Shown piece by piece: positions 9,405-38,152 of a stretch of 64,000 bases of DNA (positions within the stretch are counted from its first letter, which is position 1; every line of letters starts with the position of its first letter). A program made the position numbers and the translations under genes. This DNA comes from Candidatus Anaerostipes avistercoris (lineage in GTDB: Bacteria > Bacillota > Clostridia > Lachnospirales > Lachnospiraceae). The notes beneath the pieces were generated by a model, which was given only the letters and a program-made list of their open reading frames with translations, was not told the origin of the DNA and made no database searches. Location: contig DWWD01000016.1 of the NCBI GenBank assembly GCA_019119895.1, positions 40,379 through 104,378 on the forward strand. The letters run 5' to 3'.

Positions 9405-10754
9405 ATGGGGAAATATTTTGGAACAGACGGCTTCAGAGGAGAAGCAAATGTGAATCTGACAGTAGAGCATGCCTATAAAGTGGGACGATATATCGGATGG
9501 TATTTTAATCAGAAAACATCCAGAGCCAAGATTGTCATCGGAAAAGATACCAGACGCAGCAGCTACATGTTTGAAAATGCTCTTGTCGCCGGATTAACGG
9601 CATCAGGAGCGGACGCTTATATGCTGTATGTGACAACGACGCCGAGTGTGGCTTATGTTGTCCGCACGGAGCAGTTTGACTGTGGAATCATGATTTCTGC
9701 CAGTCACAATCCATTTTATGATAATGGAATCAAGCTGATCAATGCCAAAGGACATAAGATGGAAGCAGAAGTCGAGGAAAAAGTCGAGGCGTACATTGAC
9801 GGAGAGATTGATGAAATCCCATTTGCCACTAAGAAAGAAATCGGACGCGCAAGGGATTATACAGCTGGAAGAAATCATTATATCGGATATCTGATTTCCT
9901 CTGCCACCCGCTCTTTTAAGGGAATGAAAGTCGGACTTGACTGTGCCAACGGAAGTTCTTTTGCCATTGCGGAAAATGTGTTTAATGCTCTCGGAGCAGA
10001 GACACATGTGATCAATAATGAGCCGGACGGAACCAATATCAATACCAACTGCGGTTCCACTCATATTGAGATTTTAAGAGGATATGTAAAAGAAAATCAT
10101 CTGGATGTTGGTTTTGCGTATGACGGTGACGCAGACCGCTGTATCGCAGTGGATGAAAACGGTCAGGTTGTGGACGGAGATCTGATTCTCTATGTCTGCG
10201 GTCAGTATCTGAAGAAACATGGTGAGCTGAACAATAACACCATTGTAACAACGGTTATGTCCAATCTGGGACTTTATAAAGCCCTGGAGGCAGCCGGTAT
10301 TTCTTATGAGAAGACGGCAGTAGGAGATAAATACGTCAATGAAAACATGGTAAGAAACGGCCATGCCCTGGGAGGTGAGCAGTCCGGACACATTATTTTC
10401 AGCAAGTACGCTACAACAGGAGACGGAATTCTTACTTCCCTGAAGATCATGGAAGCAATGATTGAACAAAAGCAGGCACTGAGCCATCTGGTGGAAGCCG
10501 TTGAGATTTTTCCTCAGATTCTGGAAAATGTTCGTGTGCATGACAAGAAGACAGCACAGGATGATCCGGATGTGCAGGCGGCGGTAGCGGAAGTTGAAAA
10601 AGAACTTGGAGATGAAGGAAGAATTCTCGTCCGCGAAAGCGGAACGGAGCCGCTTGTCCGTGTCATGGTAGAAGCGAAGAGCCATGAGATCTGCCGCAGT
10701 AAGGTAGATAAAGTGGTGAAGGTGCTGAGACAGAAAGGGCATGTCGTTGAATAA
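9405..10754 (+). CDS. glmM: Phosphoglucosamine mutase
   Basis: MGKYFGTDGFRGEAN..., ISASHNPFYDNGIK active-site Ser, DGDADR metal site; ATG 9405 with aaggag RBS rather than 9327. Confidence 0.93.
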   Translation: MGKYFGTDGFRGEANVNLTVEHAYKVGRYIGWYFNQKTSRAKIVIGKDTRRSSYMFENALVAGLTASGADAYMLYVTTTPSVAYVVRTEQFDCGIMISASHNPFYDNGIKLINAKGHKMEAEVEEKVEAYIDGEIDEIPFATKKEIGRARDYTAGRNHYIGYLISSATRSFKGMKVGLDCANGSSFAIAENVFNALGAETHVINNEPDGTNINTNCGSTHIEILRGYVKENHLDVGFAYDGDADRCIAVDENGQVVDGDLILYVCGQYLKKHGELNNNTIVTTVMSNLGLYKALEAAGISYEKTAVGDKYVNENMVRNGHALGGEQSGHIIFSKYATTGDGILTSLKIMEAMIEQKQALSHLVEAVEIFPQILENVRVHDKKTAQDDPDVQAAVAEVEKELGDEGRILVRESGTEPLVRVMVEAKSHEICRSKVDKVVKVLRQKGHVVE

Positions 10755-10757
10755 TTT

Positions 10758-12983
10758 ATGGAAAAATTATATGCGGAAATTATTATAGATATTTCTCATG
10801 AGGCACTGGATCGGGTTTTTAGCTACAAAGTGCCTTTTTCCTTACGGGAAGATATCCGGATCGGGCAGCAGGTGACGGTGCCCTTCGGGAGAGGGAACAA
10901 GGAACGCAAAGGTTATGTTGTTGGTTTTTCCAATCGGACGGATTATGATGAGAATAAGGTAAAAGAAATTCTGAGAATTGATGCAGACGCGGTGACAGCG
11001 GAATCCAGAATGCTGAATCTGGCATACTGGATACGGGAAAATTACGGATCGACTATGATTCAGGCTCTCCGCACGGTTCTGCCGGTGCAGGAGAAAATGA
11101 ACCGCAGGTCTGCCCGATGGATCGAGCTGAAAATAGATCCGGTACATGGTCCGGCTCTGCTGGAAGAGTATTTTGGGAAACATTATACGGCGAAGGCCAG
11201 GCTTCTGGCGGCTCTGCTGGATCAAAACAGGATTTCATGGGAACAGGCAGCCCATCAGCTGAAGATTTCCAAAAGCACAGTGGATTCCATGGTAAAGGAT
11301 GATGTGATCCGGGTGGTGACAGAATATTATTACCGGAATCCCAGTCAGCAGGAGACGGAACTGGAACCGCCTGCTCTGCTTAATAAAGAGCAGCAGAAGC
11401 TGGTGGACGAATTTAAGCAGGATCTGCTTCGAGAGGAACATAGGGTGTATCTGCTCCATGGGGTGACGGGAAGCGGAAAGACTGAAGTGTATCTGGCGGC
11501 CATTGATGAGGTGATAAAAAGAGGTCAGCAGGCCATCGTGCTGATTCCGGAAATTGCCCTGACCTACCAGACAGTCCGGAGATTTACCAAACGGTTTGGA
11601 GAAAGGGTTTCGATATTGAATTCCCGTCTGTCCAAAGGGGAAAAATATGATCAGTGGCTCCGGGCAAAACAGGGAGATGTGGATGTAATCATCGGTCCCA
11701 GATCCGCACTGTTTGTCCCGTTTCCAAATCTTGGTCTGATCGTGATTGACGAAGAACATGAGGGCAGTTATAAGAGTGAGCAGACGCCCAAATACCATGC
11801 GAGGGAAACGGCGATTCAGAAGGCGTCTATGGAAGGTGCGTCGGTGATTCTCGGATCGGCGACGCCGTCGGTGGAAAGTTACAAACATGCGCTGGAAGGA
11901 AAGTACCGGTTATGGGAGCTTACGAAACGGGCGCAGAACGCAGTGCTGCCTCAGGTTTATATTGAAGATCTCAGGGCAGAACTGAGGGCGGGAAACCGGA
12001 GTATTTTCAGCCGGAGACTCCGCAGTCTTATGGAAGACCGGCTGAACAAAGGCGAGCAGATGATGCTGTTTCTGAACCGGAGAGGCTATGCGGGATTTGT
12101 TTCCTGCAGGAGCTGCGGACATGTGATGGAATGTCCCCACTGTGATGTGTCTATGACGTATCACCGGGAGGGTGTCCTGAAATGCCATTACTGCGGGTAC
12201 GAACTGCCGATGCCGAAGACCTGTCCGGAATGTGGAAGTCCTTACATCGGAACCTTTGGTCTGGGAACGCAGAAAGTGGAATCTGCCATTTATAAGGAAT
12301 TTCCGGGAGTCAGAGTGCTCCGGATGGATATGGATACAACCAGGAGAAAGCACAGTCATGAGGAAATTCTGAAAGCCTTTTCCAGGGGAGAGGCAGATAT
12401 CCTGGTGGGGACGCAGATGATCGTCAAAGGACATGATTACGCTAATGTGACTCTGGTAGGAATCCTGGCGGCGGATCTGTCTCTGCATGCTAATGATTAC
12501 AGGGCCGGCGAGCGGACATTCCAGCTTCTGACCCAGGCGGCAGGAAGAGCCGGCCGCGGAGACAAAGGCGGAGAAGTAGTCATACAGACGTATTCACCGG
12601 ACCACTACAGCATTGTCACGGCAGCGGCGCAGGATTATAAGGAATTTTACCGGCAGGAGATCGGATACCGTACACTGATGAAATATCCTCCGGTCTGGCA
12701 GATGCTGGTAATTTTCTTTTCCGGCAGTGATGAGGATCAGGTAAAGGAATTGTCGGGGAAGACGGCAGAAGTTCTGAAGCGGATGGAATTACTGGTCATT
12801 GGGCCGGGAGAAGCGTCTGTGGTCAGAATGAAGGATCAGTACCGCCGTGTGGTTTATATAAAAGACGCGGATTATCAGAATCTGATCCGGGCAAAAGATC
12901 ATGTAGAAGCATGGCTGGAACAGCAGCAGGAAAAGAGAAATGTTCTGATAAATTTTGATTTTAATCCAATGAACAGTTATTAA
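10758..12983 (+). CDS. priA: Primosomal protein N' (replication restart helicase)
   Basis: LLHGVTGSGKTEVYL, DEEHEGSYK, zinc-binding CRSCGH...CPHCD...CHYCG...CPECGS. Confidence 0.96.
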   Translation: MEKLYAEIIIDISHEALDRVFSYKVPFSLREDIRIGQQVTVPFGRGNKERKGYVVGFSNRTDYDENKVKEILRIDADAVTAESRMLNLAYWIRENYGSTMIQALRTVLPVQEKMNRRSARWIELKIDPVHGPALLEEYFGKHYTAKARLLAALLDQNRISWEQAAHQLKISKSTVDSMVKDDVIRVVTEYYYRNPSQQETELEPPALLNKEQQKLVDEFKQDLLREEHRVYLLHGVTGSGKTEVYLAAIDEVIKRGQQAIVLIPEIALTYQTVRRFTKRFGERVSILNSRLSKGEKYDQWLRAKQGDVDVIIGPRSALFVPFPNLGLIVIDEEHEGSYKSEQTPKYHARETAIQKASMEGASVILGSATPSVESYKHALEGKYRLWELTKRAQNAVLPQVYIEDLRAELRAGNRSIFSRRLRSLMEDRLNKGEQMMLFLNRRGYAGFVSCRSCGHVMECPHCDVSMTYHREGVLKCHYCGYELPMPKTCPECGSPYIGTFGLGTQKVESAIYKEFPGVRVLRMDMDTTRRKHSHEEILKAFSRGEADILVGTQMIVKGHDYANVTLVGILAADLSLHANDYRAGERTFQLLTQAAGRAGRGDKGGEVVIQTYSPDHYSIVTAAAQDYKEFYRQEIGYRTLMKYPPVWQMLVIFFSGSDEDQVKELSGKTAEVLKRMELLVIGPGEASVVRMKDQYRRVVYIKDADYQNLIRAKDHVEAWLEQQQEKRNVLINFDFNPMNSY

Positions 12984-25064: not shown

Positions 25065-26500
25065 GAAAACAGTATGAGGCCGTCATTGGACTGGAAGTCC
25101 ATGTAGAACTGGCAACAAAGACAAAGATTTTCTGTGGATGCAGCACAGAATTCGGTGGGGCGCCGAATACCCATACATGTCCGGTGTGTACCGGAATGCC
25201 GGGATCCCTTCCGGTATTGAATAAACAGGTGGTGGAATATGCAGTCGCAGTGGGACTGGCTGCCAACTGTGACATCACCCAGAACTGCAAATTTGACCGT
25301 AAGAACTATTTCTATCCAGATAATCCTCAGAATTATCAGATTTCCCAGCTGTATCTGCCGATCTGCAGAAATGGTAAAGTGGAAATTGATGTGGATGGAA
25401 ATAAGAAAGATATCAGAATCCATGAGATTCACATGGAAGAAGATGCCGGAAAGCTGATCCATGACCCGTGGACCGGAGATTCTCTGGTAGACTTTAACCG
25501 CTCCGGCGTTCCTTTGATCGAGATCGTGTCAGAGCCGGATATGCGCTCTGCCGATGAGGTTATCGCTTACCTGGAAAAATTAAGACTGATCATCCAGTAT
25601 CTGGGCGCGTCAGACTGCAAGCTGCAGGAGGGTTCCATGAGAGCGGACGTGAACTTATCTGTGAGAGAAGAAGGAGCAGAAGAGTTCGGAACAAGGACAG
25701 AGATGAAGAACCTGAATTCTTTCAAGGCCATTAAGAGAGCCATTGAAGGAGAAATGGAACGACAGATCGATCTGATCGAAGCCGGTGAGGAAGTAGTGCA
25801 GGAGACACGCCGTTGGGATGACACCAAAGGAGAATCTTTCGCCATGCGTTCCAAAGAGGATGCTCAGGATTACCGTTACTTCCCGGATCCGGATCTGGTG
25901 CCGGTGGAAATCAGTGATGAATGGATCGCCCAGATCAAAGCAGCTCAGCCGGAATTCAGAGATGAAAAGAAAGCCAGATACAAAGAGGAATATGACCTGC
26001 CGGACTATGATATTGATATTATAACCGGTTCCAAACATATGGCGGATTTATTCGAGGCGACCATTGACCTCGGGTCTGATCCGAAAGAAGTATCCAACTG
26101 GGTGATGGGAGAGACCATGCGTCTGGTCAATGAATCAGAAATGGAACTGGATGATGTGGCGTTTGCGCCGGAACATCTGGCAAAACTGATCGAGATGATC
26201 AAGAACAATGAGATCAACCGAAAAGTCGGAAAAGAAGTGTTCGAGAAGATTTTCAGAGAAAATATTGATCCTGCGGCATATGTAGAAGAGCACGGATTAA
26301 AATCTATGAGTGACGAAGGAGCGCTCCGAGCGGCAATCGAAAAGATTGTAGCAGAGAATCCGAAATCTGTAGAAGACTTTAAATCCGGTAAGAAAAAAGC
26401 TAAAGGATTCCTGGTGGGACAGACGATGAAAGCGACACAGGGAAAAGCAGATCCTGGAATCGTAAACAAGATTTTGGACGAAATTCTGTCACAGATTTAA
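25061..26500 (+). CDS. gatB: Asp/Glu-tRNA amidotransferase subunit B
   Basis: YEAVIGLEVHVEL, CPVCTGMPGSLPVLN, DFNRSGVPLIEIVSEPD. Confidence 0.97.
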   Translation: MRKQYEAVIGLEVHVELATKTKIFCGCSTEFGGAPNTHTCPVCTGMPGSLPVLNKQVVEYAVAVGLAANCDITQNCKFDRKNYFYPDNPQNYQISQLYLPICRNGKVEIDVDGNKKDIRIHEIHMEEDAGKLIHDPWTGDSLVDFNRSGVPLIEIVSEPDMRSADEVIAYLEKLRLIIQYLGASDCKLQEGSMRADVNLSVREEGAEEFGTRTEMKNLNSFKAIKRAIEGEMERQIDLIEAGEEVVQETRRWDDTKGESFAMRSKEDAQDYRYFPDPDLVPVEISDEWIAQIKAAQPEFRDEKKARYKEEYDLPDYDIDIITGSKHMADLFEATIDLGSDPKEVSNWVMGETMRLVNESEMELDDVAFAPEHLAKLIEMIKNNEINRKVGKEVFEKIFRENIDPAAYVEEHGLKSMSDEGALRAAIEKIVAENPKSVEDFKSGKKKAKGFLVGQTMKATQGKADPGIVNKILDEILSQI

Positions 26501-26511
26501 TCAGAAACTAT

Positions 26512-26549
26512 AAGGACATAGATTTACAGTTTTGTAGATTTATGTCCTT
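26512..26549 (+). terminator. Intrinsic terminator after gatB
   Basis: aaggacatagatttac...gtagatttatgtcctt then tttct. Confidence 0.75.
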
Positions 26550-26621
26550 TTCTATTGAATTTGTGTTTCAAAATCAGTACAATAAGAAAGAAAAAAGGAG
26601 AAAGGTATTGGATAGTAGAGT

Positions 26622-27419
26622 ATGAGAGAATATAAAGGAATTGTATTTTTTGATTATGATGGAACAACAGTAGACGAAGTAGACCGAATTAAAACCGCAA
26701 CGCCGACAACGGTGGAATCACTGCAAAAGTTAAAACAAAACGGATATCTGACGATGCTGTGTTCCGGGCGTACAAAACGTTTTCTGGAGATGGATATCGA
26801 TAAATTTCAGGGAGCCATTACCTGCAATGGAGCTCATACGGAGGCAAACGGAGAGATTTTCCGTGACATTACCATTCCGGACGAGCTGTTATTTGATGTG
26901 ATCAACAAGTATTTTCCGCGGGATACGATCATCCAGCTGGAAACTCAGGACGTGACCTATTATCTTCATAATGACGCGGATTTTTTCCAGTATTACTGCC
27001 GGCTGTTCAGCCTGCCGGAGAGATGGTATGCTCCATGGAAATTCCGGACAAAAGATAATCATATTAATAAATTGGTGTTAAATTACAAAGATCCGCAGGT
27101 GCTGGAAGATTTCAAGGAAGAATATAAGGATGTATTCCAATGCGCGAAGCATGTGCGGGAAAATTTTATTGATATCACTCTGAAGGGTGTCACAAAGGGA
27201 GACGCCATTGAAGAATTGATCGAAGAACTGGGAATCGATAAGAAAGATACCTATGCATTTGGAGACGCAGATAACGATGTTGAGATGATGAAAGTGGTCG
27301 GAACCGGAGTTGCCATGGGAAGACACAGTGATGCAGTAGGCGAAGTGGCGTCAATGGTAACCGGAACCGTAAAAGAAGAAGGCATCACACAGGCATTGGA
27401 GAAATTGGGGCTGATATAA
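26622..27419 (+). CDS. HAD superfamily hydrolase (Cof-type), copy 1
   Basis: FFDYDGTTVD motif I, GDADNDVEMM motif IV. Confidence 0.88.
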   Translation: MREYKGIVFFDYDGTTVDEVDRIKTATPTTVESLQKLKQNGYLTMLCSGRTKRFLEMDIDKFQGAITCNGAHTEANGEIFRDITIPDELLFDVINKYFPRDTIIQLETQDVTYYLHNDADFFQYYCRLFSLPERWYAPWKFRTKDNHINKLVLNYKDPQVLEDFKEEYKDVFQCAKHVRENFIDITLKGVTKGDAIEELIEELGIDKKDTYAFGDADNDVEMMKVVGTGVAMGRHSDAVGEVASMVTGTVKEEGITQALEKLGLI

Positions 27420-28219
27420 TGGGAAAATATAAAGGAGTCGTATTGTTTGATTATGATTTTACGACGGTAGACAGAGATGACGGGATTCTGGTGGCATCCC
27501 AGAAGACCATAGAATCTTTAAATAAACTCAAAGAAAACGGATATCTGACGATGCTGTGTTCCGGGCGGAGCAAACGTTTTCTGGAAGATGATATTGACAA
27601 GTTCCAGGGGGCGATCACCTGTAATGGAGCTTACACAGAGATTGAGGGACGTTCGGTTCGTGATATCCATATCCCGCAGGATGTAGTGCAAAAGGTAATC
27701 AGAGAGTATGATACGGAAGAATCAGCGCTCCATCTGGAAACCCAGGATGTGACATATTACATTGAGCACGGACAGGATTTTTATAAAGGATTCCGTTTGT
27801 TCCTGGATCTCCCGGAACACTGGTTCGCGCCGTGGAGTGAGCATAAAGAGGGAGAACATATCACCAAGATCGTCATGAACTGCACGAAAAAAGAAATTAT
27901 GGATCAATTCCGGGAAGAATTTGCCGGGCAGCTGCAGTGTGTACCTCCGTTTGAAGACAAGCTGATTCTGGATGTTATGTCAGTGGGAATTACAAAAGGA
28001 GAGGCGATCGATTATCTGCTGGATCAGTTTGAAATTGACCGGAAAGACAGCTATGCATTTGGTGATTCTGACAATGATGTGGAAATGCTGAAGACTGTCG
28101 GCACCGGCGTGGTGATGGGAAAGCACAGCAAGGCAGCAGGAGAGGCTGCAGCGATGTTTACCGGAACAGTAAAAGAAGAAGGAATTACCACAGGATTGGA
28201 AGCGCTAGGATTGATTTAA
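27419..28219 (+). CDS. HAD superfamily hydrolase (Cof-type), copy 2
   Basis: Paralogue of the preceding ORF; LFDYDFTTVD, GDSDNDVEML. Confidence 0.86.
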   Translation: MGKYKGVVLFDYDFTTVDRDDGILVASQKTIESLNKLKENGYLTMLCSGRSKRFLEDDIDKFQGAITCNGAYTEIEGRSVRDIHIPQDVVQKVIREYDTEESALHLETQDVTYYIEHGQDFYKGFRLFLDLPEHWFAPWSEHKEGEHITKIVMNCTKKEIMDQFREEFAGQLQCVPPFEDKLILDVMSVGITKGEAIDYLLDQFEIDRKDSYAFGDSDNDVEMLKTVGTGVVMGKHSKAAGEAAAMFTGTVKEEGITTGLEALGLI

Positions 28220-28220
28220 T

Positions 28221-28925
28221 ATGGTAAAAATAATATTTGATCTGGATGACACTTTGTATGATCTGATGGAGCCGTTTCAGAAAGCTCATGAGGAAGTCTT
28301 CGGGGATAAGACCGACGCAGACTGTGAGCAATTGTTTATGGCATCCAGGATATATAGTGATAAAGCATTTTATCTGGTAAGAGATGGAAAAATGCCAAAG
28401 AAAGAAGAATTCGCTTACCGGATTCGGAAAACGTATCAGGATGCGGGACTGGAGCCTGACCGGGAAGAAACGGACCGGTTTGAAAAACGGTACCGCTATT
28501 ATCAGAAGCATCTGCATGTACCGGAAGTGATTCGGAAAATGCTGGATTTCTGTGTGGAACGGAGAACCGTGATCGGGATTCTGACCAATGGAACCGCTGT
28601 GAATCAGGGAAAGAAGATAGAGGTTTTGGGAATGGAGCGGTGGTTTCCAAAGGAACGGATTTTTATATCAGACGAGGTGGGAGCTACCAAGCCTGATGTC
28701 AGAGCCTTTCAGGCTGTAGAAAATTCCATGAATCTGGATCCGAAGGATATCTGGTTTGTGGGAGATACGTTCGAAGTGGATGTGGACGGCGCCCGTAATG
28801 CCGGCTGGCATATCATATGGTTCAATCACCGGAAACGAAAGGCACCGGAAGGAGCCGGACAGCCGGATCTGGAAGTAAGGTCAGCGGAAGAACTGCTGGA
28901 AGCAATTGAAAAATTGACAAAATAG
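28221..28925 (+). CDS. HAD family hydrolase (YjjG-like)
   Basis: IFDLDDTLYD, GILTNGTAVNQ, VGDTFEVDVDGARNAGWHIIWFN. Confidence 0.85.
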   Translation: MVKIIFDLDDTLYDLMEPFQKAHEEVFGDKTDADCEQLFMASRIYSDKAFYLVRDGKMPKKEEFAYRIRKTYQDAGLEPDREETDRFEKRYRYYQKHLHVPEVIRKMLDFCVERRTVIGILTNGTAVNQGKKIEVLGMERWFPKERIFISDEVGATKPDVRAFQAVENSMNLDPKDIWFVGDTFEVDVDGARNAGWHIIWFNHRKRKAPEGAGQPDLEVRSAEELLEAIEKLTK

Positions 28926-28927
28926 AC

Positions 28928-28977
28928 AAAAAATTGACAGCAGAGAAGAGGAAAGTCTTTTCTGCTGTCAATTTTTT
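28928..28977. terminator. Bidirectional terminator between convergent HAD and rpiR-family genes
   Basis: aaaaattgacagcagagaag...cttttctgctgtcaatttttta. Confidence 0.8.
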
Positions 28978-29839
28978 ATAACTTATGATCCGCGATAACA
29001 GTACGAATTGTTTTTAAAGACTGATTTGCCTGTTCGCTGTTTCGAAACATTGCCAAAACAAAGATGGCATCAATAATAGCCAGCTGAGAAATCCTGGATG
29101 CCAGTGCCTCAGAGCGGTAAGCTGTCTCTTCAGCCGTACAGGTCAGAACAATGTCTGCGATTTTAGTGAGCGGCGAAGTAGGATAGCTGGTCAGAACAAT
29201 AATTTTTGCAGATGTTTTTCTTGCGGTTTTGGCAATTTCAATGGTTTCTTTTGTAGCACCGGTATGAGAAATAATAAATGCGCAGTCATTTGATGTTAAA
29301 AGAGAGGCATTCATCAGCTGCATATGATAATCGGATACATATTGACATTGAACCGGAGAGCGGAGAAATTTGTGATACATATCTTCAGCAACAACGCTGG
29401 ATCCGCCTATACCAAAAAAACTTACAATATTAGATTTTAAAAAAATATCTGCCGTTCTGCCGTAATCTTCTGCATGAATTAATTTTTTAGTATCCTGCAG
29501 AGACTGAATAGTAGAATCAAAAACTTTTTCAATTTTTGTGTAGTCATTATCAGATTGCTGAATGTTTTCATGAATAGAGACAGAAGCATCTGACTCTTCC
29601 GTCAGAAGAGCTATCTTAAATTCTTTGAATCCTGAATAACCTAATTTCCTTGTAAACTGAAAAAAGGTGGAAACAGCAATTCCGAGAAACTGTGCAATTT
29701 CATTGATGGTACTCCTGGATGTTTTCTCAGGGTAATCTAATACATAATCAGCAATTCTTTTTTCAGTAGGACTTAATTCAGGATATAAAGCTTTGATTTT
29801 CAAACGGATTGTGATGGCAGATTTTTCTTCATGCTTCAT
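28976..29839 (-). CDS. MurR/RpiR family transcriptional regulator (HTH + SIS)
   Basis: LSPTEKRIADYVLDYPEKTSRSTINEIAQFLGIAVSTFFQFTRKLGYSGFKEFKI; SIS domain. Confidence 0.92.
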   Translation of the reverse strand: MKHEEKSAITIRLKIKALYPELSPTEKRIADYVLDYPEKTSRSTINEIAQFLGIAVSTFFQFTRKLGYSGFKEFKIALLTEESDASVSIHENIQQSDNDYTKIEKVFDSTIQSLQDTKKLIHAEDYGRTADIFLKSNIVSFFGIGGSSVVAEDMYHKFLRSPVQCQYVSDYHMQLMNASLLTSNDCAFIISHTGATKETIEIAKTARKTSAKIIVLTSYPTSPLTKIADIVLTCTAEETAYRSEALASRISQLAIIDAIFVLAMFRNSEQANQSLKTIRTVIADHKL

Positions 29840-29934
29840 AATTATTCTCCAAAGTTTTGTATATTGAATTTCATATAAAATAATATCATTTTTTTTTATG
29901 ATTGTAAAACGAAAAAATTTCTTTATAAAAAGTA

Positions 29935-29963
29935 TTTACAAGAAAAAATTTTTGTGCTAATAT
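29935..29963 (+). promoter_or_regulatory. Promoter of the PTS operon
   Basis: TTTACA, 17 nt, TAATAT; spacer contains GAAAAAATTT, which is also present at 29911. Confidence 0.55.
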
Positions 29964-30061
29964 TAGTACATCATTTAAGGAAGGCATGGAAAGAAAAAAA
30001 TCAGAGAAAGGAGGATAATTTTTTAACACAGATTCACAGATGAAAAGAAGGAGGTAACGAA

Positions 30062-30820
30062 ATGGAGTTAACAGTCATTCAGGCATTGATCATTGCAATC
30101 TGGGTTGCGCTGATTGAATCCAGATGCCTTGGATATGCCACATTAACATTACGCTTCAGTCCATTGATGACAGGATTTGTCTGCGGAGCTGTCATGGGAA
30201 ATGTTTCTGAGGCTATGATGGTAACCGCAACCATTCAGTTGATTTATATGGGAGCGGTTGCGCCAGGAGGAACATTGCCAAGTGAACCGGCAATTGCTGC
30301 TGCAATTGCGGTACCGGTAGCATTGATCGGAAACCTGAGTCCGAATCAGGCAGTGGCAATTGCAGTGCCAGTAGGATTGCTGGGATCATACTTATATCAG
30401 TTCCGATTCTTTTTGAATACGTTCTTTACAAAAGTAATGGATAAGTATGCGGCAGAAGGAGATGGAAGGAGATTGGGAATTTCCATTATGCTGATTCCGA
30501 CAGTAATTTCTTTCTGTTTGTTTATTCCGCTGACATTTATTGCTTTATATTTTGGAGCACCAGTCATTTCGGATGTAGTTAATATGATTTCCAATGGACC
30601 AATTTTTCATATTCTGGAAGTTGTTGGCGGCGGACTCGCAGCTCTTGGAATTGCAGTTATTATGCATGTTATAGGAAAGAAGAGTCTGCTCATTTTCTTC
30701 TTCCTGGCATATTTTATGAGCGTTTCACTGAGCAGTCTGGAAATTAATACAGTGACTTATGCAATCTTTGGATGTATTTGTGCAGGAATGTACATTCTGT
30801 TTACTGCAAAAGAAGCGTAA
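30062..30820 (+). CDS. PTS mannose/fructose/sorbose family EIIC
   Basis: Multi-TM, LIESRCLGYATLTLRFSPLMTGFVCGAVMGN; followed by IID, IIA, IIB. Confidence 0.92.
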   Translation: MELTVIQALIIAIWVALIESRCLGYATLTLRFSPLMTGFVCGAVMGNVSEAMMVTATIQLIYMGAVAPGGTLPSEPAIAAAIAVPVALIGNLSPNQAVAIAVPVGLLGSYLYQFRFFLNTFFTKVMDKYAAEGDGRRLGISIMLIPTVISFCLFIPLTFIALYFGAPVISDVVNMISNGPIFHILEVVGGGLAALGIAVIMHVIGKKSLLIFFFLAYFMSVSLSSLEINTVTYAIFGCICAGMYILFTAKEA

Positions 30821-30835
30821 AGGGAGGTGTGAAAT

Positions 30836-31750
30836 ATGAGTGAATATATCGAACAGTTTATGGATGAAGAAGGAACGATAACGGCGGATACAAGTGTTAT
30901 GACAAAGCTGGAAAATGCACCGGAACCAATTACAAATAAAGATTTGCTCAAATCATGGTTTCGCTGGTGGTGGGCAAATGAAGTGCCGCATACATATGAC
31001 CGTATGCTGGCTCCGGCATTTTGCTTTGGAATGATTCCGGCATTAAAAAAGCTTTACAAAGACAAAGCGATGCTCGCGGAGGCATTTCAGAGACATTTAA
31101 TGTTCTTTAATACGCAGGCAGTCTGGGGCGGAGGAACGCTGACAGGAGTTTCTATTTCTTTGGAAGAAGCGAGAGCAAAAGCACTTCATGAAGGAAAGCC
31201 GGAAGAAGCGGTAGATGTCTCTATGATCAATAATACTAAGATTGGATTGATGGGTCCTTTGGCAGGAATTGGAGATGCCATTGATTCTGGTACAGTACAA
31301 TATATCTTTATTGCGATTTTTCTTCCGTTTGCAAAATCAGGAAGCGGTCTGGGAGCTTTACTTCCATTTTTATGTTTTGCATTGTCAACCTTTATTTACG
31401 GCTTTTTCTTTACCAAAATGGGATACAGCTTAGGACGAGGCGCTGCAAAAGAGATCATGACAGGAGCAAAAATGAAATCAGTGATCAATGCGCTGGGAGT
31501 TCTTGGATTGTTTATGATGGGAATCATGGCAGCACAGTATGTGGATGTTTCCAGTGCACTGGAATTTACGATCAATCAAAAGGAATTTGTCATTCAGGAT
31601 ATTCTGGATTCCATCCTTCCGGGGCTCCTTCCGCTGTTGACAGTACTCGCATTGTATCTGTTCTTTGACAAGAAGGGATTAAAGATTACGAAAGGTATGA
31701 TTGTATTGACTGTTTCACTGATTATATTAGCAGCAATTGGAATTTTATAA
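30836..31750 (+). CDS. PTS mannose/fructose/sorbose family EIID
   Basis: ALKKLYKDKAMLAEAFQRHLMFFNTQAVWGGGTLTGVSISLEE, GPLAGIGDAID. Confidence 0.94.
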   Translation: MSEYIEQFMDEEGTITADTSVMTKLENAPEPITNKDLLKSWFRWWWANEVPHTYDRMLAPAFCFGMIPALKKLYKDKAMLAEAFQRHLMFFNTQAVWGGGTLTGVSISLEEARAKALHEGKPEEAVDVSMINNTKIGLMGPLAGIGDAIDSGTVQYIFIAIFLPFAKSGSGLGALLPFLCFALSTFIYGFFFTKMGYSLGRGAAKEIMTGAKMKSVINALGVLGLFMMGIMAAQYVDVSSALEFTINQKEFVIQDILDSILPGLLPLLTVLALYLFFDKKGLKITKGMIVLTVSLIILAAIGIL

Positions 31751-31766
31751 AACTGGAGGAAGCAAA

Positions 31767-32180
31767 ATGGCAAATCGGGCAATTATTGTAATCACACACG
31801 GAGAATTTGGAATAGAGCTGATTAAAAGTGCAGAAATGATCATGGGTCCACAGGAAGATGTAAAGGGGCTCGGGCTCCGTCCCGGAGAATCCGTTGATGA
31901 TCTGCGGGCAGAAGCAGGGGAAACGGTAGAAAAATTTAAGGAAGACGGAAAAGAAATCATCGTATGCTGTGACGTGCTGGGCGGAAGTCCAAGCAACGTA
32001 GCGCTGTTCCTTGCAGCAAAATATGATCTTCAGATTTTTACAGGTGTTAATATGCCGCTCCTGATCGAATTATTCCAGGGATATCAGGACGATGAAGATA
32101 CGGAAGAACTTTTAAACCGGGCAGAAGCGACAGGTTCTGAGGGCGTAAAACGTTTGGCAAAAGATTTTTTAAAAAAATAG
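31767..32180 (+). CDS. PTS mannose-family EIIA
   Basis: IIVITHGEFGIELIKSAEMIMG with active-site His; DVLGGSPSNVA. Confidence 0.92.
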   Translation: MANRAIIVITHGEFGIELIKSAEMIMGPQEDVKGLGLRPGESVDDLRAEAGETVEKFKEDGKEIIVCCDVLGGSPSNVALFLAAKYDLQIFTGVNMPLLIELFQGYQDDEDTEELLNRAEATGSEGVKRLAKDFLKK

Positions 32181-32201
32181 AATCAACAGGAGGTAAAACA
32201 A

Positions 32202-32690
32202 ATGGGTACAATTAATTTAGTAAGAATTGACGACAGACTGATCCACGGACAGGTAATGACAAAATGGTCCAAAGGAATGGGAACCAATGCGATTTATGTT
32301 ATTGATGATGTAACGGCAGCAGATGATTTTATGAAAGATATCTACATCTCAACAAATTCTTCAGCAAATTTAAAAATTGAAGTTTACAGCGTGGATGAAG
32401 CAGTAGAAGAGTATAAAAAGAATCAGTACGGAGATGACAAAGTCATCTTATTATTTAAGACGGTTGCATATGCCAAAAAATTTATTGAGGCAGGAATTCC
32501 TGTGGATTCTCTCTGCGTCGGCGGTATTGCCAAGAAACCGAAAGCAACATTTGTAATTTCTACTGTAGGTCTGACACAGGAAGATGCGCAGCAGCTGAAA
32601 GAACTTCATGACAAGGGAATCGAAGTATACTTCCAGATTGTGCCGGATACACCGAAAGTTTCTTTCGAAGATGCTATGAAGAAAATGTAG
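32202..32690 (+). CDS. PTS mannose/fructose/sorbose family EIIB
   Basis: NLVRIDDRLIHGQVMTKWSK active-site motif. Confidence 0.94.
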   Translation: MGTINLVRIDDRLIHGQVMTKWSKGMGTNAIYVIDDVTAADDFMKDIYISTNSSANLKIEVYSVDEAVEEYKKNQYGDDKVILLFKTVAYAKKFIEAGIPVDSLCVGGIAKKPKATFVISTVGLTQEDAQQLKELHDKGIEVYFQIVPDTPKVSFEDAMKKM

Positions 32691-32701
32691 GAGAAGACTG
32701 T

Positions 32702-33682
32702 ATGGTTGAATATCGAATTGCAATTGTAAATTCCAGCAGTTTCGGAAGAAGGTTTCCAGATCAAATGGAGAGGCTGCAGAAAATCGGAACAGTGGAAAGA
32801 ATTACAGTTGACGGCATGATGAGAGGAAAAGAACTGGCAGAACGGCTCCGGGGATATAATTTGATCATTTCCAGCGTTACTCCCTTTTTTGACCGGGAAT
32901 TTTTTGAGAATAAGGACGAGTTGCTGATCATTTCCAGGCATGGTATCGGCTATAACAATATCGACTTAGAAGCAGCCAGAGAACATAACACGACAGTATC
33001 AATCGTCCCGCCTCTGGTGGAGAGGGATGCCGTAGCAGAAAACGCGGTAGCAAATCTCATGGCTGTCATGCGCATGACAGTTCCAGCTGTCAAGGCAGCA
33101 TCAGAGAATCGGTGGAAAGACCGGGCCAGCTTTGTTGGAAACGGAATTACAGGGAAAACAGTGGGCGTGATCGGCTGTGGAAATATCGGAAGCAGGGTAG
33201 CAGAGATATTAAAACACGGATTCAATACCCGGCTGCTGGTAACAGATCCGAATCTAGATCTTGAATGGGCCAGGGAACACGGAGCAGAACAGGTTGATTT
33301 GGAAACTCTGGTATCAGAAGCAGACATTATTTCTCTGAACTGCACTCTGAATGAGACATCATTTCATATTCTGAATCAGCAGATGTTTGAGAAAATGAAA
33401 CCAGGCGTATATATTACAAATACAGCAAGAGGAGATCTTATTGATGAAGAGGCTGCCTGTAAGGCTATTGAAAATGGAATTATAAAAGGAATGGCAGTCG
33501 ATGTGATGCATGAAGAACCGGCCTCAAACACACATCCGTATTTTAGATATGATAATGTTCTGGTGACACCGCATACATCAGCTTATACAATCGAATGTCT
33601 GCAGGGTATGGGAGAAAAATGTGTAGAAGACCTGGAAAAAATAATTGTCGGGCAGAAACCTGAATGCACTGTAGAGAAATAG
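32702..33682 (+). CDS. D-isomer-specific 2-hydroxyacid dehydrogenase
   Basis: VGVIGCGNIGSRVAEIL, TARGDLIDEEA, DVMHEEPASNTHPYF, TPHTSAYT. Confidence 0.92.
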   Translation: MVEYRIAIVNSSSFGRRFPDQMERLQKIGTVERITVDGMMRGKELAERLRGYNLIISSVTPFFDREFFENKDELLIISRHGIGYNNIDLEAAREHNTTVSIVPPLVERDAVAENAVANLMAVMRMTVPAVKAASENRWKDRASFVGNGITGKTVGVIGCGNIGSRVAEILKHGFNTRLLVTDPNLDLEWAREHGAEQVDLETLVSEADIISLNCTLNETSFHILNQQMFEKMKPGVYITNTARGDLIDEEAACKAIENGIIKGMAVDVMHEEPASNTHPYFRYDNVLVTPHTSAYTIECLQGMGEKCVEDLEKIIVGQKPECTVEK

Positions 33683-33691
33683 TATGAAGCC

Positions 33692-33725
33692 AGAAGCCCT
33701 TTTCATTCAGTGGAAAAGGGCTTCT
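33692..33725. other. Intra-operon hairpin without U-tract
   Basis: agaagcccttttc-attcagtg-gaaaagggcttct, 13 bp perfect stem. Confidence 0.7.
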
Positions 33726-33750
33726 GCTGCAAATACCACAGGAGAAAACA

Positions 33751-34452
33751 ATGAAGAAATTATTGATTTTTGATATGGATGGTCTGATGTTCGAAAGTGG
33801 GAAAATGGCGTTCCGCGGATATCTAGAATCGGCCAGAAAATATGATTATCAGATGACTCATGATGTATATTATTATCTGACCGGCCGTACCTGTGAAGAA
33901 ATTTATGACGAAATGAAGAATTTATACGGAAGCGAGAACGATACGAGAACATGGCGGGAAGAGATGCTGAGAAGCAAACAGGAGATTCTTGAAAAAGAGC
34001 AGAAGATAGGAAAGAAGCCCGGCCTGCTGGAACTTCTGCAATACTGCCGTGAAAATGAAATTCAGACAGCCATGGCATCTTCTAATGATTTGATGATGAT
34101 CAGACAGTATCTGCAGATGGAACAGATGGAGGGAATGATACCATTTATTGTTTCAGGCGAAGAAGTCAGGCGAGGCAAACCGGATCCGGAAATTTTTCAG
34201 AAAGCATGCAGGAAGGCAGGAGCAGAACCGGAGGAAGTTTTGGTTCTGGAAGATTCCATGGTAGGTATTTTGGCCGCAAACAGAGCCGGATATCAAAGTG
34301 TATGGATTGAAGATGATATTACAGAATTGCCGGAGTATGATGGAAAAATAAAATTAAAAAAATCGTTGGACAGGAAGAATATGAAATGGGGCAGACCGGA
34401 TTTTGTATGTAAATCATTAAAAGAAGTTGTAAACCTTTTGAAGGAGTTATAA
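33751..34452 (+). CDS. HAD family phosphatase, beta-phosphoglucomutase-like
   Basis: IFDMDGLMFESG, MASSNDLMMIRQYL, RGKPDPEIF, VLEDSMVGILAANRAG. Confidence 0.9.
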   Translation: MKKLLIFDMDGLMFESGKMAFRGYLESARKYDYQMTHDVYYYLTGRTCEEIYDEMKNLYGSENDTRTWREEMLRSKQEILEKEQKIGKKPGLLELLQYCRENEIQTAMASSNDLMMIRQYLQMEQMEGMIPFIVSGEEVRRGKPDPEIFQKACRKAGAEPEEVLVLEDSMVGILAANRAGYQSVWIEDDITELPEYDGKIKLKKSLDRKNMKWGRPDFVCKSLKEVVNLLKEL

Positions 34453-34453
34453 T

Positions 34454-35005
34454 ATGAGAGAAGAATATCTTATTTATTCAGACAGAACAAAACAAATCCT
34501 GTCATTCATTATGAATTTAATTCTGATTGGGATATGCGGGTGTTTTATGACGATGGAAGCAATGTCCATATGGCTGAAGCTTTTTCTTGGTGTGATGATC
34601 GTATTTATGATAATTATGGAAGGGAAAGTCATCTGCCGGCTGAAAGAAAAGAAGATTTTGTACCGTCTGGATCAGAAAGGAATCACGGATTATACAGATC
34701 CGGAAAAGACCATATATCTGGATTGGAAAGACGTGGGAAAAGTTGAAACTGTTGTGAATAATACTTCTCTGCAAATCGGAATCATGGGGATAAAGGTATC
34801 AGAAGATAAAAACAGGATGGGAGAGATTTTAAAAAGAAATTTATCTGCGAATGGGAATATGTCATTTTATCATATTGTGATTGATGGATTTCAGTTTCGA
34901 AAAAAAGTATTTCGTGAGATCATTCACCAGTGCAGATATTTTGCTGTGAAGTATCATCCATCTGTTGTGATAACAGAAAGTAATGATCCGTTTTTGAAAC
35001 GGTAA
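34454..35005 (+). CDS. Small membrane protein, STM3941-like
   Basis: Two TM segments then a PH-like region (LYRLDQKGITDYT...YLDWKDVGKVE). Confidence 0.55.
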   Translation: MREEYLIYSDRTKQILSFIMNLILIGICGCFMTMEAMSIWLKLFLGVMIVFMIIMEGKVICRLKEKKILYRLDQKGITDYTDPEKTIYLDWKDVGKVETVVNNTSLQIGIMGIKVSEDKNRMGEILKRNLSANGNMSFYHIVIDGFQFRKKVFREIIHQCRYFAVKYHPSVVITESNDPFLKR

Positions 35006-35024
35006 AAGAAATGGAGTGATTGTA

Positions 35025-36437
35025 ATGGGAAAAAGTTCAATTGGCGTCTACGGAATGGGAGTTATGGGCCAGAGTCTTGCTTTAAATATGATGAATCATG
35101 GGTATCAGGTTTCTGTGTTTAACATTGATTATGATGTAACAGAAAAATTTGTCCAGACAAAAGCACTGGGCAAAAGTGTACAGCCGTGTAAAGAATTGAA
35201 GGAATTTACAGATTCTCTGGAGAAACCAAGAAGAGTATTCCTTATGGTAACAGCAGGAAAAGTGACGGATTTAGTGATTGATCAATTGAAGGAATGCCTG
35301 GAAGAAGGCGACATTATCATTGATGGAGGAAACTCATATTTTAAAGATACGATTCGAAGATTTAAGGAACTAAGAGAATATGGACTTCATTTTATCGGAA
35401 CGGGAGTTTCCGGTGGAGAAAAAGGTGCTCTGGAAGGACCAAGTATGATGCCGTCAGGAGATCCGGAAGCATATCAGTACGTAGAACAGATTTTTACCGA
35501 TATTTCAGCAAAGGCAAAGGACGGAGCTCCATGCTGTGCATATATCGGCGGAGATGGTTCCGGGCATTATGTAAAGATGGTACATAATGGAATTGAATAC
35601 GCTGATATTCAGATTATTTGTGAAGCGTACGATTTGATGCGCAATGGAGCGGGCTTTTCTATAGAAGAAATTCAACAGGTATTTGAACAGTGGAATCAGG
35701 GAAGGTTAAAATCATACTTAATAGAAATAACCAGCAAGATTTTAAAGAAAAAGGATGAAGAAACCGGAAAATATCTTGTGGATGTGATTCAGGATAAGGC
35801 AGGGCAGAAAGGGACCGGAAAATGGACCAGCATGGAGGGACTGGATATTGGAGCAGCTATCCCGACAATTGCAGAGTCAGTATTTTCCAGATATATTTCT
35901 GCGCAGAAGGAAGAAAGAGTCCGCGCAAGCCTGGAATTAACAGTAAATTTATCTGCGGAAGTAACCGACAAAGAAGAGTTTGTCCGTGATTTGGAAGCAG
36001 CCGTATATGCAGCAAAAATATGCTGCTATGCCCAGGGATTTGAATTGCTGAAAAAAGCGGCAGCAGAATATGGATGGGTATTGGATTTTGGACAAATTGC
36101 TATGATCTGGCGGGAAGGATGTATTATTCGTGCTGATTTTCTGGAAGATATCAAAGCTGCTTATGATCAGGGTGAAGTGTCTAATTTGATGCTGACTTCA
36201 AAATTTAAAAAAGAATTATTAGATGCGCAGAAATCATGGCGGCGAATTGTGTGTCATATCGTGAATAGTGGAATCTATGCTCCGGCATTAACCAGTACAC
36301 TGAATTATTTCGATGGATACCGCTGTGAAAGAACCAGTGCAAATCTCACACAGGCACAGAGAGATTTCTTTGGTGCGCATACCTATGAGCGTACAGACCG
36401 GGAAGGAATTTTCCATACCATATGGGAAGAAGAGTAA
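35025..36437 (+). CDS. gnd: 6-phosphogluconate dehydrogenase, decarboxylating
   Basis: IGVYGMGVMGQSLALNMMNHGY, IIDGGNSYFKDT, GVSGGEKGALEGPSMMPSG, GGDGSGHYVKMVHNGIEYADIQ. Confidence 0.95.
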   Translation: MGKSSIGVYGMGVMGQSLALNMMNHGYQVSVFNIDYDVTEKFVQTKALGKSVQPCKELKEFTDSLEKPRRVFLMVTAGKVTDLVIDQLKECLEEGDIIIDGGNSYFKDTIRRFKELREYGLHFIGTGVSGGEKGALEGPSMMPSGDPEAYQYVEQIFTDISAKAKDGAPCCAYIGGDGSGHYVKMVHNGIEYADIQIICEAYDLMRNGAGFSIEEIQQVFEQWNQGRLKSYLIEITSKILKKKDEETGKYLVDVIQDKAGQKGTGKWTSMEGLDIGAAIPTIAESVFSRYISAQKEERVRASLELTVNLSAEVTDKEEFVRDLEAAVYAAKICCYAQGFELLKKAAAEYGWVLDFGQIAMIWREGCIIRADFLEDIKAAYDQGEVSNLMLTSKFKKELLDAQKSWRRIVCHIVNSGIYAPALTSTLNYFDGYRCERTSANLTQAQRDFFGAHTYERTDREGIFHTIWEEE

Positions 36438-36456
36438 AAAGACAGTGAAATTGAGC

Positions 36457-36491
36457 CACAGAAAAGACGAGGAATCCTCGTCTTTTCTGTG
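36457..36491. terminator. Perfect 17-bp palindrome, bidirectional terminator
   Basis: cacagaaaagacgagga-a-tcctcgtcttttctgtg between convergent genes. Confidence 0.75.
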
Positions 36492-36516
36492 CTTGTTTTC
36501 TTTTCAGGGGGATTTC

Positions 36517-37440
36517 TTATGATAGTAAGAAATCCCCCTGCCGGATATCCTGAACCTTCAGCTGATGAGCAATTTCATTCAGTACGGTTCGTTTCCGGAG
36601 GCTCCATAAAGGCGCGATCAGCAGGTCTCTTGGACCATCGCCGGTCAGACGGTGGATGACAATATCTTTGCGAAGGTTTCCAATGCAGCGAAGAATCAGA
36701 TCAATATAGGACTCCATGGTAAAGACGGGAAAAGGATCTTCCCGGTACATATCTGCCAGGTCGGTGCCTTTTAGTATATGAAGCATGGAAAATTTAACTC
36801 CGTGGACTGGAAGAGAATTGAGATACCGGACGGATTCCAGCATCATCTCCTCTGTTTCGCCGGGCAGGCCCAGAATCAGATGAACCACTGTCCACACGCC
36901 GATAGAAGATAAATTCCAAACTGCCTCCTCAAAACAGGAAAGAGGATAGCCACGGCGGATCAGTCCGGCGGTAGACGGATGAATGGTCTGGAGCCCCAGT
37001 TCCACAAAAACCGGTTTTTGGTTATTTAGTTCTTTCAGCAGTGACAGAACGTCACTGGGAAGGCAGTCCGGCCGGGTTCCAATGGCGAGAGCGGCAATGC
37101 GGGGATCTTCCATGGCTTCGGTAAACAGCTGACGGAGCCGGGACACCGGGGCATAAGTATTGGTAAAAGCCTGAAAATAAGCAATATATCTGGAAGATGG
37201 ATTTTTTGCCGCTACAAGAGAGATACCCTGAGTGATCTGATCCTGGATGGAGAGACGGGCGTCTGAAGCAAAATCACCGGAGCCGCCTTCACTGCAGAAG
37301 ATACAGCCGCCGGTTCCGATGGTTCCATCCCGGTTGGGACATGTAAATCCGCCGTCCAGGGATACTTTATAAATTTTTTCCCCAAATGTATTTTTTAAAA
37401 AGCTGTCAAAGGAATAGTAGCGTTTTCCGTGCCAGTCCAT
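36517..37440 (-). CDS. TIGR01212 family radical SAM protein (YtqA-like)
   Basis: MDWHGKRYYSFDSFLKNTFGEKIYKVSLDGGFTCPNRDGTIGTGGCIFCSEGGSGDF; gggaggt RBS gives start 37440 rather than 37512. Confidence 0.9.
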   Translation of the reverse strand: MDWHGKRYYSFDSFLKNTFGEKIYKVSLDGGFTCPNRDGTIGTGGCIFCSEGGSGDFASDARLSIQDQITQGISLVAAKNPSSRYIAYFQAFTNTYAPVSRLRQLFTEAMEDPRIAALAIGTRPDCLPSDVLSLLKELNNQKPVFVELGLQTIHPSTAGLIRRGYPLSCFEEAVWNLSSIGVWTVVHLILGLPGETEEMMLESVRYLNSLPVHGVKFSMLHILKGTDLADMYREDPFPVFTMESYIDLILRCIGNLRKDIVIHRLTGDGPRDLLIAPLWSLRKRTVLNEIAHQLKVQDIRQGDFLLS

Positions 37441-37636
37441 ATAAAACCTCCCAAAATAGTAAATAGAATTGAAATATCTGTCAGTTTTCCAGATAAACCT
37501 AGCATAAAACAAGACATCTGCGCAAGTATAGTTTCTATTTTCCTTAGATTTTACAAAAATTTAGAAAGAATTAACGGAATGATTGCAGGAATTTTCAATT
37601 CATCCGATATGATGGTAGTAAAGGAGGGTGAATAAA

Positions 37637-38152
37637 ATGAATGCAGTAATGCGATTTGATGTAAGAACGTCGATGAAACTTCAAAGACATAAAAATCCTG
37701 CAGTGGATAAAGTGCTTTTGGGAATAACAAAATCAGCAAACGGCGGGATGATATGGATTGCGGCGGGATTGCTGCTGCTGGCTATCCCGGGATACAGAGG
37801 AGCCGGGATTTTCTATTTTGAGGTGCTGGCTGCCACGGCAGTTGTAAATAATATTATTTTAAAATCAACCTTTATGAGGAAACGGCCATGCGACCTGTTT
37901 AAAAAGATACCGGTATTGATCAAGAGACCCCATGGTTCTTCATTTCCATCCGGACATACAGCCGTATCCTTTGCGTGCGCGGCAGCACTGTGCGCCATCT
38001 GCCTTCCGGCAGGAATTTTTGCATTATGTCTGGCGGCTGTGATCGGATTTACGAGAATCTACTTTTTTGTACATTTCTTTACGGATGTGTTGTTCGGCGT
38101 CATATCAGGACTTGCGACGGCGGTTATTTGCATCGTAATCTTTCTGCTCTGA
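37637..38152 (+). CDS. PAP2-family phosphatase
   Basis: KRPCDLFKKIP...GSSFPSGHTAVSFA...FVHFFTDVLFG. Confidence 0.88.
   Translation: MNAVMRFDVRTSMKLQRHKNPAVDKVLLGITKSANGGMIWIAAGLLLLAIPGYRGAGIFYFEVLAATAVVNNIILKSTFMRKRPCDLFKKIPVLIKRPHGSSFPSGHTAVSFACAAALCAICLPAGIFALCLAAVIGFTRIYFFVHFFTDVLFGVISGLATAVICIVIFLL

Follow-up and report, generated by a model that had tools for sequence, protein, structure and literature searches.

A putative hexonate-utilisation operon of the Enterococcus faecalis gluconate type in Anaerostipes, and a dehydrogenase-fold family that may act at C2 of 6-phosphohexonates

We analysed a 64,000-nucleotide stretch of the Candidatus Anaerostipes avistercoris genome (contig DWWD01000016.1, positions 40,379 to 104,378; hereafter the window). 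At positions 28976-36437, the window sequence and profile families revealed an RpiR regulator gene diverging from eight co-directed genes spaced 1-68 bp apart. We put at roughly 65% the probability that this is an RpiR-controlled hexonate operon that combines uptake by a phosphotransferase system (PTS), a C2 step carried out by a D-2-hydroxyacid dehydrogenase-fold enzyme (DHAD), and an exit through the 6-phosphogluconate dehydrogenase Gnd. In the scheme we propose, RpiR would control an operon for hexonate use, of the gluconate-PTS type known from E. faecalis, whose four-part PTS would import a gluconate-class six-carbon sugar acid and phosphorylate it at C6. DHAD would work at C2 of the phosphorylated acid via 2-keto-6-phosphogluconate; relatives at C2 (2-ketogluconate and/or mannonate) would likewise end as 6-phosphogluconate, which an NAD-linked Gnd would decarboxylate to ribulose-5-phosphate. 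The features are as follows.

28976..29839, minus strand: RpiR/MurR-family regulator with HTH_6 and SIS domains (Pfam/NCBIfam)
29912..29953, no strand assigned: double AT-rich box, the predicted and probable RpiR operator, overlapping the -35 hexamer, with one copy running into TTTACA
29935..29963, plus strand: promoter-like site TTTACA-17-TAATAT (sequence pattern)
30062..30820, plus strand: PTS EIIC, mannose/sorbose family (PF03609, E 9e-57)
30836..31750, plus strand: PTS EIID (PF03613, E 8e-82)
31767..32180, plus strand: PTS EIIA (PF03610) from an ATG start; an in-frame TTG upstream at 31737 is possible
32202..32690, plus strand: PTS EIIB (PF03830, E 4e-45)
32702..33682, plus strand: DHAD, a 2-Hacid_dh protein (PF02826/PF00389)
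33751..34452, plus strand: HAD hydrolase, beta-PGM-like, PGMB-YQAB subfamily (Pfam/NCBIfam)
34454..35005, plus strand: small membrane protein (NF041635, STM3941 family, 40.1 bits against a cut-off of 40)
35016..36437, plus strand: Gnd, full-length two-domain 6-phosphogluconate dehydrogenase (TIGR00873, 681 bits against a cut-off of 427; PRK09287 above cut-off)
36457..36491, plus strand: strong intrinsic terminator-like hairpin at the end of the operon (16 pairs, 8 G-C, T-rich tail)

Pfam and NCBIfam thus confirmed every gene that an earlier, sequence-only reading had assigned to this operon, and the sequence shows intact phospho-histidine motifs in EIIA (ITHGEFG) and EIIB (DDRLIHGQV) as well as the catalytic lysine motif of Gnd (HYVKMVHNG).

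The strongest evidence for a gluconate-class substrate comes from the genome around the operon. The host is an Anaerostipes near A. butyraticus, with an assembly that is 100% complete, and the operon Gnd is its sole 6-phosphogluconate dehydrogenase. No glucose-6-phosphate dehydrogenase (G6PDH) was detectable in the assembly, the genome had no PF01081 match indicative of a 2-keto-3-deoxy-6-phosphogluconate (KDPG) aldolase, and none of its six full FGGY kinases reached the gluconokinase cut-off (the small GntK/SKI type of gluconokinase was not searched for). The 6-phosphogluconate used here must therefore derive from uptake, and Gnd, rather than serving the oxidative pentose pathway as a housekeeping enzyme, must draw on sugar acids taken up from outside, for which the operon PTS is the simplest route. 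This bears out the earlier proposal that 6-phosphogluconate is the node of the pathway, and we regard a gluconate-class substrate as well supported. The UxuA and KDPG aldolase exit, known as the ‘mannonate route’, is absent from the operon, and UxuA was not found in A. butyraticus or Ca. A. excrementavium.

The affiliation of the PTS points the same way. Its EIIC, EIID, EIIA and EIIB all exceed their Pfam cut-offs, which identifies a mannose-family (TC 4.A.6) permease. In a tree of EIID proteins, a branch (SH-aLRT 98) divides 68 DHAD-linked sequences, the window's among them, from seven same-genome paralogues (28-41% identical) as well as from E. coli ManZ and AgaD. The set includes EIID of an E. 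faecalis-type locus (L083). In this locus EIIA has the identical sequence to PDB entry 3ipr, and UxuA to 1tz9, both E. faecalis structures. The L083 gene order (GndA-DHAD-ADH-EIIC-EIID-EIIB-EIIA-UxuA-Eda) agrees with that of two E. faecalis ‘gluconate’ operons (PMC2766626, PMC4707282). By its EIID clade the window PTS is of this E. faecalis gluconate type, as the sequence-only reading had anticipated, with putative roles in gluconate transport and phosphorylation. A PTS for another sugar, such as an amino sugar or a hexose, with Gnd as an incidental neighbour, is very improbable. Mannose-family PTSs are promiscuous and the best NCBIfam matches of EIIC are GalNAc/galactosamine subunits, but EIID belongs to the clade of the E. 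faecalis gluconate PTS, the operon carries no deaminase, sugar-phosphate isomerase or bisphosphate aldolase, and the genome, in which no G6PDH was detected, has no other Gnd. The galactosamine/GalNAc label for EIIC was rejected, its scores being far below the cut-offs. Across contigs C27, C33, C7, C16, C42, C6 and C35, the genome encodes eight full-length mannose-family EIIDs and three partial copies, one with an internal stop.

Like the gluconate PTS operons of E. faecalis (EF3142-37 and EF3136-34; OG1RF_12405-00 and 12399-97), the window operon has an EIID of this clade, an adjoining RpiR gene and an internal 6-phosphogluconate dehydrogenase gene; DHAD is 56% and EIIC about 62% identical between the window and L083. 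The PTS genes run C-D-B-A in L083 but C-D-A-B in the window. L083 has a short GndA, an iron-type alcohol dehydrogenase (Fe-ADH), UxuA and KDPG aldolase, whereas the window has a full-length Gnd, the HAD protein and the small membrane protein. It lacks the UxuA-KDPG aldolase branch of most Lactobacillales relatives and relies on Gnd alone. An operon in Breznakia pachnodae (L011) resembles the window's in its RpiR gene, EIIC-D-A-B order, DHAD, HAD and small membrane protein, the last of which is also present in the Ca. A. excrementavium operon (L010); it differs in having a short NAD-type GndA in front, where the window has full-length Gnd at the end. Since EF3142-EF3134 already combines PTS, gnd and uxuA, the composition as such is not new, contrary to what the sequence-only reading had supposed. 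The window operon is a previously undescribed variant of the E. faecalis-type gluconate PTS operon, and its interesting part is the DHAD family.

At C2, UxuA requires the mannonate and Gnd the gluconate configuration. We counted 75 loci with a DHAD at least 47% identical to the window's, and these counts are indicative only: 64 carried a PTS, 38 Gnd or GndA, 40 UxuA and 59 an RpiR gene, while eight had an FGGY kinase without a PTS. The fullest form reads RpiR | GndA-DHAD-FeADH-EIIC-EIID-EIIB-(membrane protein)-EIIA-UxuA-KDPG aldolase-HAD. Seven of the eight FGGY-kinase loci encode UxuB and/or UxaC, and three encode GndA. In these hexuronate loci DHAD adjoins a gluconokinase-like FGGY kinase and stands between mannonate formation by UxuB and, where present, 6-phosphogluconate use by GndA; a Leuconostoc citreum plasmid combines DHAD-FGGY kinase with KDPG aldolase and GndA. 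DHAD is the constant partner of UxuA and Gnd, also where Fe-ADH is missing, and its context switches 24 times across the DHAD tree, as expected for a single enzyme feeding alternative exits. Extracts of Lactobacillus suebicus cells grown on galacturonate phosphorylate mannonate and interconvert 6-phosphomannonate and 6-phosphogluconate in both directions, with no gene assigned (PMC6978723). A DHAD orthologue from the same 15-row clade as the window's occurs in Lactobacillales loci that resemble this hybrid galacturonate route, having UxuB/UxaC, an FGGY kinase and in some cases GndA; the window has a PTS in place of permease and kinase, and no uronate enzymes. In light of the UxuA and Gnd configurations, the DHAD contexts and the L. 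suebicus activity, the most economical single function is C2 interconversion of 6-phosphohexonates, with DHAD linking 6-phosphogluconate, 2-keto-6-phosphogluconate and 6-phosphomannonate. DHAD may do this alone with bound NAD or, in many Lactobacillales, as half of a redox pair with an HcxA/YbdH-like Fe-ADH; the window enzyme may do no more than reduce 2-keto-6-phosphogluconate.

The DHAD protein itself is compatible with such a role. The Arg243-Glu272-His291 catalytic triad is invariant in an alignment of the family, and the family forms its own clade (support 100/99), separate from E. coli GhrB, 2dbq and 9m0t, a B. subtilis enzyme named ‘probable 2-ketogluconate reductase’. KguD/GhrB-type 2-ketogluconate reductases share the superfamily, fold and Arg-Glu-His triad with DHAD but differ at Asp182, which is invariant in DHAD, as in NAD-dependent SerA, and is replaced by N, A or S in 9m0t, GhrB and 2dbq. 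DHAD thus lacks the NADPH-type cofactor pocket of these reductases. Of the earlier proposal of a KguD-like enzyme, action at C2 fits, while descent from that group finds no support in a tree that covers GhrB and 9m0t but not KguD itself. The residues invariant only in this family (S11, S13, R79, H80, E107 and Y295) would be in keeping with a substrate that is phosphorylated or handled twice. A structural model reached a pLDDT of 95 with 41 sequences (48 from a single sequence), and a fold search with the model placed DHAD among glyoxylate reductases and phosphoglycerate dehydrogenases, with no finer placement.

In Gnd, FNIDYD stands at the site of E. coli FNRSRE; the NADP arginine is lost, and with it the NADP-binding Asn-Arg-Ser/Thr motif, and most GndAs have an aspartate at the end of the corresponding strand. 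Gnd is probably NAD-preferring, and DHAD is probably of the NAD type, using NADH rather than NADPH. Taken together, Asp182 and FNIDYD make both steps look NAD-linked, and, to judge from these residues, matched cofactor use would close a redox loop from 2-ketogluconate to ribulose-5-phosphate.

This bears on a narrower version of the C2 reading, the one put forward by the sequence-only reading, namely a dedicated 2-ketogluconate path in which the PTS makes 2-keto-6-phosphogluconate, DHAD simply reduces this product with NADH, and Gnd closes a redox-neutral path ending in ribulose-5-phosphate. D-2-hydroxyacid dehydrogenases yield the 2R (gluconate) configuration, and in the 1960s Streptococcus faecalis was reportedly found to ferment 2-ketogluconate via a 2-keto-6-phosphogluconate reductase. 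The path fits an apparent NAD match between DHAD and Gnd, the Gnd-only loci (the window, L010, L011, L016, L107 and L116) and a DHAD-Gnd pair in the Breznakia order (L132). It sits poorly with UxuA, which acts on the mannonate configuration, in 40 of the 75 loci, five of which have a PTS but no Fe-ADH, and with the hexuronate loci, where FGGY kinase, UxuB/UxaC and DHAD offer no 2-keto acid to reduce. As a general explanation of the DHAD family, a 2-ketogluconate reductase fails, since both the UxuA-KDPG aldolase and the FGGY kinase-UxuB/UxaC contexts need more than a plain reductase. Nor is 2-ketogluconate favoured as the specific substrate: a literature search gave nothing direct on a PTS-linked 2-ketogluconate path, in E. 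faecalis the orthologous operons are linked with gluconate and with the ‘mannonate route’ (PMC2766626, PMC4707282), and E. faecalis is mostly gluconate-positive, with 2-ketogluconate use varying among strains (PMC8744253). A dedicated path is a possible, though less probable, account of the Gnd-only Anaerostipes version. A 5-keto acid substrate, with the alcohol dehydrogenase acting at C5, was set aside, as the best model for that enzyme is PRK10586 and the enterococci tested are 5-ketogluconate-negative.

A second narrower version would make DHAD an NAD-dependent 2-epimerase of 6-phosphomannonate and 6-phosphogluconate that retains its cofactor and works via 2-keto-6-phosphogluconate, with the PTS importing mannonate and/or gluconate. 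This would unite the PTS-UxuA-Eda, PTS-Gnd and FGGY kinase-UxuB/UxaC contexts (the last with GndA in some), and is consistent with the extra invariant R79, H80, E107 and Y295, which are not common to GhrB/SerA-type enzymes, and with prebound NAD in the same fold, as reported for McyI in the titles of its entries. However, we know of no D-2-hydroxyacid dehydrogenase that acts as an epimerase, and the Fe-ADH that accompanies DHAD in most PTS loci points instead to a redox route shared by two enzymes. The best model for Fe-ADH is PRK10586 (HcxA/YbdH-like), presumably a 2-oxoacid reductase. As an always-required partner Fe-ADH was dropped, since five PTS-UxuA loci lack it (L014, L084, L089, L096 and L099), and no close orthologue was found elsewhere in those five genomes (best 26-34%). 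A competing candidate is an aldose-1-epimerase-like protein, encoded in four hexuronate loci and not seen as a constant neighbour in PTS loci; this is the kind of protein favoured by the authors of PMC6978723 for the 6-phosphomannonate 2-epimerase activity, and a DHAD locus could not be placed in L. suebicus itself. DHAD could be the gene behind the L. suebicus activity; that the family is the missing C2 epimerase, or the oxidoreductase behind that activity, is a tentative proposal to which we give well under even odds. Because both proposals are narrower versions of the same C2 reading, their probabilities overlap with that of the hexonate operon as a whole.

The HAD protein raises another alternative, in which an ordinary gluconate PTS and Gnd are accompanied by DHAD and HAD as housekeeping enzymes that clear damaged metabolites such as 4-phosphoerythronate. 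This compound is a by-product and inhibitor of the pathway, HAD phosphatases are capable of such repair, and PdxB, which acts on 4-phosphoerythronate, belongs to DHAD's superfamily. In B. subtilis, 4-phosphoerythronate is documented as toxic on pentose-pathway carbon sources (PMC12445079). PdxB is, however, distant from DHAD in the tree, and DHAD also stands beside UxuA and FGGY kinase/UxuB, where repair is not obviously needed, making this alternative unlikely. HAD itself is a probable phosphatase for a sugar-acid phosphate side product, and it is not essential to the operon, since the L010 version lacks it.

Several points weigh against the hexonate operon with a C2 step. Gluconate use in E. 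faecalis via GndA needs no such step, so any need for DHAD in Gnd-only operons would hinge on the substrate. Fe-ADH is absent here (best match 28%), and the chemistry in the window may therefore differ from that of the Lactobacillales loci. In addition, the 75 loci include related, non-independent genomes, and some are cut by contig ends.

With respect to regulation, an RpiR homologue lies at most 9 kb away in 59 of the 75 DHAD loci. The double-box pattern occurs in 29 of 51 RpiR-operon intergenic regions, the window's included, against a mean of 0.02 in dinucleotide shuffles, many of the 51 regions deriving from related genomes. The TTTACA box is retained in most orthologous intergenic regions and has diverged in L083. 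Since the double box is common to regulators only 35-66% identical to the window RpiR, it suggests that the regulators of these operons may respond to a common effector class.

A DHAD orthologue was present in 2 of 392 genomes from the order of the window organism, in 68 of 398 (17%) from the Lactobacillales and in 11 of 295 from the Breznakia order, and the window genome alone, among 150 of its family, had a close EIID relative; the operon was therefore probably acquired laterally by Anaerostipes. It recurs with 99-100% protein identity in A. butyraticus JCM 17466 (L009) and is also found in Ca. A. excrementavium, with its core in many Lactobacillales and Erysipelotrichales, and is thus no chance assembly. 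About 5.9 kb from EIIB to past a radical-SAM gene (32200-38123) is 100% identical in DNA to L009, compared with 82-87% over 25703-28700, which reflects either recent interspecies exchange or a shared assembly stretch. Just ahead of the operon, three HAD-like proteins are encoded at 26622-28925, the first two (265 and 266 aa) being tandem paralogues and the third 234 aa long, an arrangement kept in L009 and L010.

Other loci show further forms. The L132 locus (9982-12629) is a minimal module of RpiR, DHAD (76%) and Gnd (74%) with no adjacent PTS. A metagenome-assembled Gilliamella genome (Gammaproteobacteria; L012:6992-10722) carries a DHAD 62% identical to the window's with the same PTS, likely through interphylum transfer or a binning error. 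On the Enterococcus faecium plasmid pVB3378_p4 (L147:13932-16283), RpiR-gnd-DHAD lies beside a 285-base ‘alcohol dehydrogenase’ fragment near sgrA at the record start, and the operon looks truncated or split by the record origin. Many Lactobacillales loci have a membrane protein of about 290 aa between EIIB and EIIA (L013:11390-12286, L014:10328-11188, L020:3435-4319), which matched no Pfam or NCBIfam family and has M28-peptidase-like motifs by eye.

If the C2 role of DHAD is correct, an enzyme family that occurs in 17% of the Lactobacillales genomes sampled would be tied to one chemical node, giving a concrete candidate for an enzyme activity that was shown in 2020 without a gene. The description of the E. 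faecalis operon as gluconate import plus a loosely described ‘mannonate route’ would be put in question. As a hub, DHAD would enable many lactic acid bacteria, and Anaerostipes through gene transfer, to switch phosphorylated hexonates between two exits, the pentose-phosphate one via Gnd and, through UxuA and KDPG aldolase, an Edd-independent Entner-Doudoroff one. Gut anaerobes that lack G6PDH would then have a possible means of making pentose phosphate from sugar acids.

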